From: a virus
Strand: one strand, 5' to 3'
DNA: 35,763 bases
IMG/VR virus record: IMGVR_UViG_3300020442_000313
Location: 1 to 35,763 of that record
Of this stretch, positions 33,803 through 34,364 are shown piece after piece (position 1 is the first letter of the stretch; each line of letters begins with the position of its first letter). Below the pieces are notes generated by a model. That model did not search any database. It had not been told where the DNA came from and worked only from the letters and a program-made list of their open reading frames with translations. The translations under genes and the position numbers were made by a program.

Positions 33803-34364
33803 TTAGCGTAACTTGCGGTATTGAGCCTTCTTTTTTGCATCTTCGTAGGCTTTTTCCTCTCTCTCACCTTTTAAAGTGAAGTATGCGTTCCATGCACACG
33901 CTTCTTCTAGTGACATTTCTTTCTGAAGGCTAGAGACTGTCATCCCTAACTTTTCGGCTATAAAAAACTGTAAGTATAGGTAGTTGTCTTTATCAAGTTG
34001 TGCTTTTTACGGCATCGGGGGTAGCCTCCTCGCCCAACTCTTGCATTTTTGTCATAAGCTCTAACAAGACTGCCAAAGGTATCTCTCTTCTTAGACTAGG
34101 TTTATCAGCTTCAACAAATAGCTTTTGACCATTTTCATCTTCAGCTTTACTTATTACTACCTGCAAGGCAAAGTCTAAGTTTCCCTCTTCTTGACCTTTA
34201 TTAGATGCTGCTAAAGTAGCATTTATGGTGTCTCTATCTGCAATAGTTAGGGGCGACCAGTAAACTTTTAAAATTAGTTCTCCGTTTTTGTAAATTGGGT
34301 AACTGCTTTTGCTGTTTATGCTAAATGCTTTCTTTAGCTTGTCGATTGCTCTATCTGTTGGCAT
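33803..34364 (-). CDS. gpGT-like frameshift fusion tail chaperone, about 186 aa
   Basis: The 123-codon gpG-like gene and a downstream frame (34003-33803, DKDNYLYLQFFIAEKLGMTV... to AQYRKLR, stop) are read as one product if the ribosome shifts at the five-A run (34008-34004). Re-pairing of Lys-tRNA one base forward gives ...DAVK-AQLDKDNYLYL. The extension has a helical tail with LEEACAWNAYFTL and KGEREEKAYEDAKKK, the size and position expected of a T domain between gpG and the tape measure. In lambda the shift is -1; here the geometry is +1 (or -2). The extension has no start of its own. Confidence 0.6.
33993..34364 (-). CDS. Tail assembly chaperone gpG-like, 123 aa
   Basis: An acidic protein (MPTDRAIDKLKKAFSINSKSSYP...) with a beta-rich first part (VYWSPLTIADRDTINATL) and helical second half (PLAVLLELMTKMQELGEEATPD). 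Its place just before the tape measure and the extended frame behind it identify it as the gpG-type chaperone that coats the tape measure during tail assembly. A decamer ACACTATTTA and A+T-rich DNA precede the ATG. Confidence 0.75.
   Translation of the reverse strand: MPTDRAIDKLKKAFSINSKSSYPIYKNGELILKVYWSPLTIADRDTINATLAASNKGQEEGNLDFALQVVISKAEDENGQKLFVEADKPSLRREIPLAVLLELMTKMQELGEEATPDAVKSTT

Follow-up and report, generated by a model that had tools for sequence, protein, structure and literature searches.

A probable +1 ribosomal frameshift at NUR_AAA_AGN in the tail assembly chaperone genes of aquatic phages

How a reading frame that lacks a start of its own can be translated is the question raised by the tail genes of the window, by which we mean the whole stretch of marine phage DNA that was analysed, 35,763 bases that make up an entire IMG/VR record classed as linear. 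Two overlapping open reading frames immediately precede the tape measure gene, as is expected of lambda-type G/GT genes, and all three are on the reverse strand. The first (34364-33993) encodes a gpG-like protein of 123 amino acids in what is called here the zero frame and ends at TGA 33995-33993. The second, the T frame (34006-33803, 67 codons), is offset from the gpG frame by one base in the forward direction, runs from just after TAA 34009-34007 to TAA 33805-33803 and contains no ATG, GTG or TTG before residue 22; its product begins KAQLDKDNYLYLQFFIAEKLGMTVSSLQKEMSLEE... The tape measure gene (33775-31772, 667 amino acids), whose product is the partner expected for the chaperones, was recognised by its similarity to the tail length tape measure family PHROG 12798 (E=6e-5) and by tblastn alignments with genes annotated as tape measure genes in cyanophages.

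The gene order and the profile matches fit a tail chaperone pair, which is what the earlier note had proposed from the letters of the DNA. In profile searches the G protein matched phrog_20784 (E=4e-15) as well as PHROG 344, a family annotated 'tail assembly chaperone' (E=2e-7), and the T part matched PHROG 337, 'tail protein' (E=6e-5), which is modest sequence support. When 50 relatives of G were scanned, phrog_20784 was matched by all of them and PHROG 344 by 33. A structure model of G was of moderate quality only (mean pLDDT 64.5), and its best match among solved structures was the HK97 tail assembly chaperone 2ob9, a weak one (E=0.39). Neither G nor the T part was recognised in a Pfam search, a search of solved structures by sequence gave no useful match, no relative of G was found in bacterial genomes, and Rfam and tRNA scans yielded nothing. 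The first frame is thus a tail assembly chaperone by profile, and the second combines the lack of a start with conservation at the protein level, both of which are expected of a lambda-type pair.

The position at which the two frames can be joined is narrowly defined. They overlap between the two stops by 17 nt, TAAAAAGCACAACTTGA, which in the zero frame read GTA AAA AGC ACA ACT TGA. The candidate shift site is GTA_AAA_AGC (34010-34002), with the slip tetramer AAAA at 34007-34004, the P-site codon AAA at 34007-34005 and the A-site codon AGC at 34004-34002; the T-frame TAA directly 5' of the slip codon (34009-34007) sets the upstream limit of the T frame. A one-base forward slip from AAA to AAA gives GCA CAA CTT GAT AAA GAC, with which the T domain begins; GCA 34003-34001 is the first codon decoded in the new frame. 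The −1 shift on a slippery heptamer that is used by lambda does not apply, as the earlier note had recognised: the T frame is in the +1 register and AAA_AGC in the zero frame does not have the form X_XXY_YYZ.

Judged from the sequence, it is very probable that this locus produces lambda-type G and GT tail assembly chaperones by +1 ribosomal frameshifting. Most ribosomes would read the G frame to the TGA, giving gpG. In a minority, peptidyl-tRNA-Lys would occupy the P-site AAA while the A site still presents the rare AGC; these ribosomes would slip one base forward on AAAA, read GCA next and continue through the T frame, giving a G-T fusion of about 189 amino acids (...DAV-K-AQLDKDN...). In tail assembly, gpG would be expected to cover the tape measure protein, with the T part bringing in the major tail protein; this role in the tail and a low ratio of fusion to gpG are presumed. 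AGC, which makes up 11% of the Ser codons in the window, would act as a slow codon. NUR codons make up 12% of all codons, and only two of the 20 in-frame AAA_AGN sites in the window follow a NUR codon. A second in-frame AAA_AGC occurs early in the G gene (34310-34308), where the preceding codon is AGC and not NUR; it can be regarded as an internal control that nature provides.

For the conservation of this arrangement, relatives were fetched from IMG/VR with G and T queries and scored for their frame relation. This gave 397 records of +1 loci, several of which represent one contig found by different searches, and 238 distinct junctions were left after removal of repeats: 111 in group G1, to which the window belongs, 66 in G2 (the AG-345-A17 group, about 38% identical), 51 in G6, nine in G7 and one in G3. 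The +1 relation was present in every scorable relative from G1 and G2, and likewise in G6 and G7. Since the relation is kept across relatives, it is due neither to chance nor to an assembly error; a wrong length of the A run, which the earlier note had named as a way in which the +1 geometry could be spurious, was rejected on the same ground. Between the connector genes and G (window 35321-34406), neither G1 nor G2 showed a recognisable separate gene for the major tail protein, whereas G3 and G6 loci have a 252-aa gene at that place.

All 238 distinct junctions carry AAA_AGN, and 237 carry NUR_AAA_AGN with GTA, TTA, TTG, ATG or CTG before the AAA; the sole exception, L511, has TCC_AAA_AGT. Because the codon before AAA is NUR, a TAA or TGA of the T frame abuts the 5' side of the slip codon, and this was found in all +1 loci except L511. 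AGC occupies the A site in 230 of the distinct junctions. In 78 of the 238 a zero-frame stop follows directly after AGN, which leaves the P-site AAA as the sole possible place for the shift, in agreement with the slip on AAA that had been suggested for the window. The earlier emphasis on the A5 run did not hold in the same way. The comparison of homologs that the earlier note had suggested, for conservation of the A run and of the frame relation, was favourable, but a run of five is not essential, since only A4 is present in 91 distinct junctions; A4 is evidently enough, and the key feature is NUR_AAA_AGN instead. At such A4 junctions tRNA-Lys would face GAA after a −1 slip and UGA after a −2 slip, so that only +1 gives full re-pairing of tRNA-Lys.

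The same codons allow a −2 slip as in phage Mu to be weighed, which would lead to the same frame with one extra lysine. Frame analysis alone cannot tell the two apart, since −2 and +1 reach one frame, and the earlier note had kept both. However, after a −2 slip tRNA-Lys would face UAA or UGA at 237 of the 238 distinct junctions, with a U-U mismatch in the first position and, for UGA, G-U in the second, which indicates that −2 pairing is not selected for. Moreover, a Mu-like site needs a run that extends two bases further in the 5' direction, and wherever the E codon is NUR the second base ahead of AAA is invariably T. A −2 slip is therefore considered very unlikely.

Selection on the T frame supports its translation in the +1 register. 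Past the overlap, the pN/pS ratio of this frame was 0.27 in G1, 0.29 in G2 and 0.13 in G6, as compared to 0.8–3.6 for the other two frames, which means that purifying selection acts on T in the +1 register only. The low values imply that T is translated, including the part ahead of its first ATG; the T domains of G2 have no early ATG whatsoever.

Upstream of the shift, synonymous sites are frozen. In the last G codons of G1, GAG-GAG stands at 100% against a background of 23%, GCC at 93% against 7% and GTA at 100% against 43%, and AGC is at 99% at the site as compared to 14% of Ser codons. In G2, AAG-GAG makes up 100% of the Lys and Glu codons in these positions, with backgrounds of 15% and 12%, GCC is at 99% against 2%, and AGC accounts for 97% of Ser against 3%. 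Synonymous sites downstream of the shift vary freely. Forward shifts usually proceed without downstream RNA structure, and at this locus no downstream hairpin or pseudoknot was found by consensus folding (energy 0.0), with single folds resembling those of shuffled sequences. An upstream hairpin is weak: GGC...GCC pairing is possible in both G1 and G2, in a segment that is nearly invariant.

The frozen GAG codons form a Shine-Dalgarno-like element, GAGGAGG (34031-34025), 17 nt before the P-site codon, and in G2 the corresponding distances are 23 nt for AAGGAGG and 14 nt for AGAGG. GAGGAGG is proposed to be a stimulator or pause element, with a role that is uncertain because it is 17 nt away from the P codon instead of the 3 nt in prfB and is displaced in G2. 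In influenza virus, UCC_UUU_CGU offers a precedent for a signal that spans the E, P and A sites, in which a weak E-site codon favours the +1 shift (PMC3498833), and upstream duplexes between mRNA and rRNA favour +1 and damp −1 shifts (PMC6321510). Since a weak E codon and an upstream duplex have these effects in other systems, the NUR codon and GAGGAGG are plausible, unproven helpers that may raise the shift rate. Nine nucleotides after GAGGAGG a start-stop mini-ORF of two codons, ATG-CCG-TAA (34015-34007), occurs in the T frame; it is kept throughout G1, and G2 lacks it.

The conserved spacing of 9 nt between GAGGAGG and this ATG in G1 could suggest that T is made alone, without fusion to G, either by initiation at ATG 34015 or by reinitiation after the TGA. 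That ATG is followed by CCG-TAA, however, so stop readthrough would be needed, the G2 loci do not have the ATG, and no usable start exists in the conserved beginning of T. Protein-level selection spans the stretch right after the slip, before the first ATG, and separate synthesis of T is as improbable in our opinion as the −2 slip. Least probable is transcriptional slippage, in which RNA polymerase would drop one A and leave some mRNA with fused frames: an A run is indeed located where the frames meet, and shortening A5 to A4 would join them, but a run of just 4 or 5 bases is shorter than the runs of about 8 or more bases that are known for such slippage, and the conservation of AGN and NUR is codon-phased, which points to decoding and thus to the ribosome, rather than the polymerase, as the probable site of slipping.

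Apart from the loci with the +1 relation, there are relatives in which the direction is reversed. The cultured cyanophages KBS-S-2A, S-H1, MED4-184 and S-2L and the pelagiphages HTVC202P and HTVC026P have homologous G and T genes in the same order, with T domains that can be aligned to those described above, but in their chaperone genes T lies in the −1 register, in most cases with the site A_AAA_AAC (GTA AAA AAC TAA in KBS-S-2A and GCA AAA AAC in S-H1), whereas the window requires +1 at AAA_AGC. Homologs with T in the −1 frame were regarded in the earlier note as counting against a forward shift. Since they carry a −1 slippery site of their own, they show that the direction has switched, and the +1 reading of the window stands. 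In the MED4-184 group (L343-L422 and L153; Prochlorococcus phages) the −1 junction is a near-invariant AAAGGAATC(C/T)TAA, which fits a slip on A_AAG and not the classical heptamer.

When the direction is mapped onto a tree of joined G and T sequences, four changes are required, at least three of them imposed by well-supported branches; the exact number is uncertain because the tree has long branches. A +1 clade (L326, L327, L329 and L335) is placed among the −1 relatives of KBS-S-2A, and around the junction its T aligns with theirs without gaps (KALKLELRKDN versus KKLKQELKKDN). It can be envisaged that NUR_AAA_AGN is a self-contained bacterial +1 signal, composed of a weak E codon, a slipping Lys codon and a slow AGN, that was reached repeatedly in evolution, and that tail chaperone genes switch between this signal and the −1 signal A_AAA_AAC with the fusion kept in register, although we hold this view with somewhat less than even confidence. 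Tail chaperone fusions go unannotated in these genomes, as no joined chaperone gene is given in the records of KBS-S-2A, S-H1 and MED4-184. In Synechococcus phage S-H1 (L150 3375-3518) the record gives the T part as a hypothetical protein of its own that begins at a late start, and a likely G-T fusion is absent from the annotation.

Compared to known systems, the locus is closest in layout to lambda gpG/gpGT (Xu, Hendrix, Duda), where the tape measure gene is likewise immediately preceded by two short overlapping frames, but lambda shifts by −1 and the frame of the window requires +1 at AAA_AGN. The forward relation, which had been called a notable variant, is real, but its novelty is weaker than was thought, since a +1 shift in a G/GT pair is not new as an idea. 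For the haloarchaeal virus HSTV-2 the same gene pair was described as very likely using +1 (PMC5009743), and in the HF1 group of haloviruses a +1 shift was proposed for this pair at TTT-CGC (PMC7230728), a site without a classical slippery run; these archaeal myoviruses resemble the window in gene pair and in the direction of the proposed shift. Among actinophage tail chaperones, the same kind of gene, the hand-annotated PRFect set contains 350 forward as compared to 2368 backward cases; no common motif was reported for the forward ones and no general motif for forward shifts was known (PMC10885494). The influenza PA-X site UCC_UUU_CGU shares a homopolymeric P codon that re-pairs one base on, a conserved rare A codon and a conserved E codon, but belongs to a eukaryotic virus, with bases and tRNAs unlike those of the window. 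Bacterial prfB likewise combines a +1 slip of the P-site tRNA with an upstream SD-like element, but there the site is CUU_UGA, with a stop codon in the A site and the SD 3 nt upstream, whereas the window has the sense codon AGC in the A site and its SD-like element 17 nt away. Bacterial signals for forward frameshifting are ill-defined, and here one short motif recurs across several divergent groups of an abundant class of aquatic phages. As far as the open-licence literature shows, the new elements are the NUR_AAA_AGN signature, its wide occurrence in phages of aquatic origin and the change of direction between homologs, and close relatives that use opposite directions for homologous proteins provide a natural set for testing what sets the direction of a frameshift.
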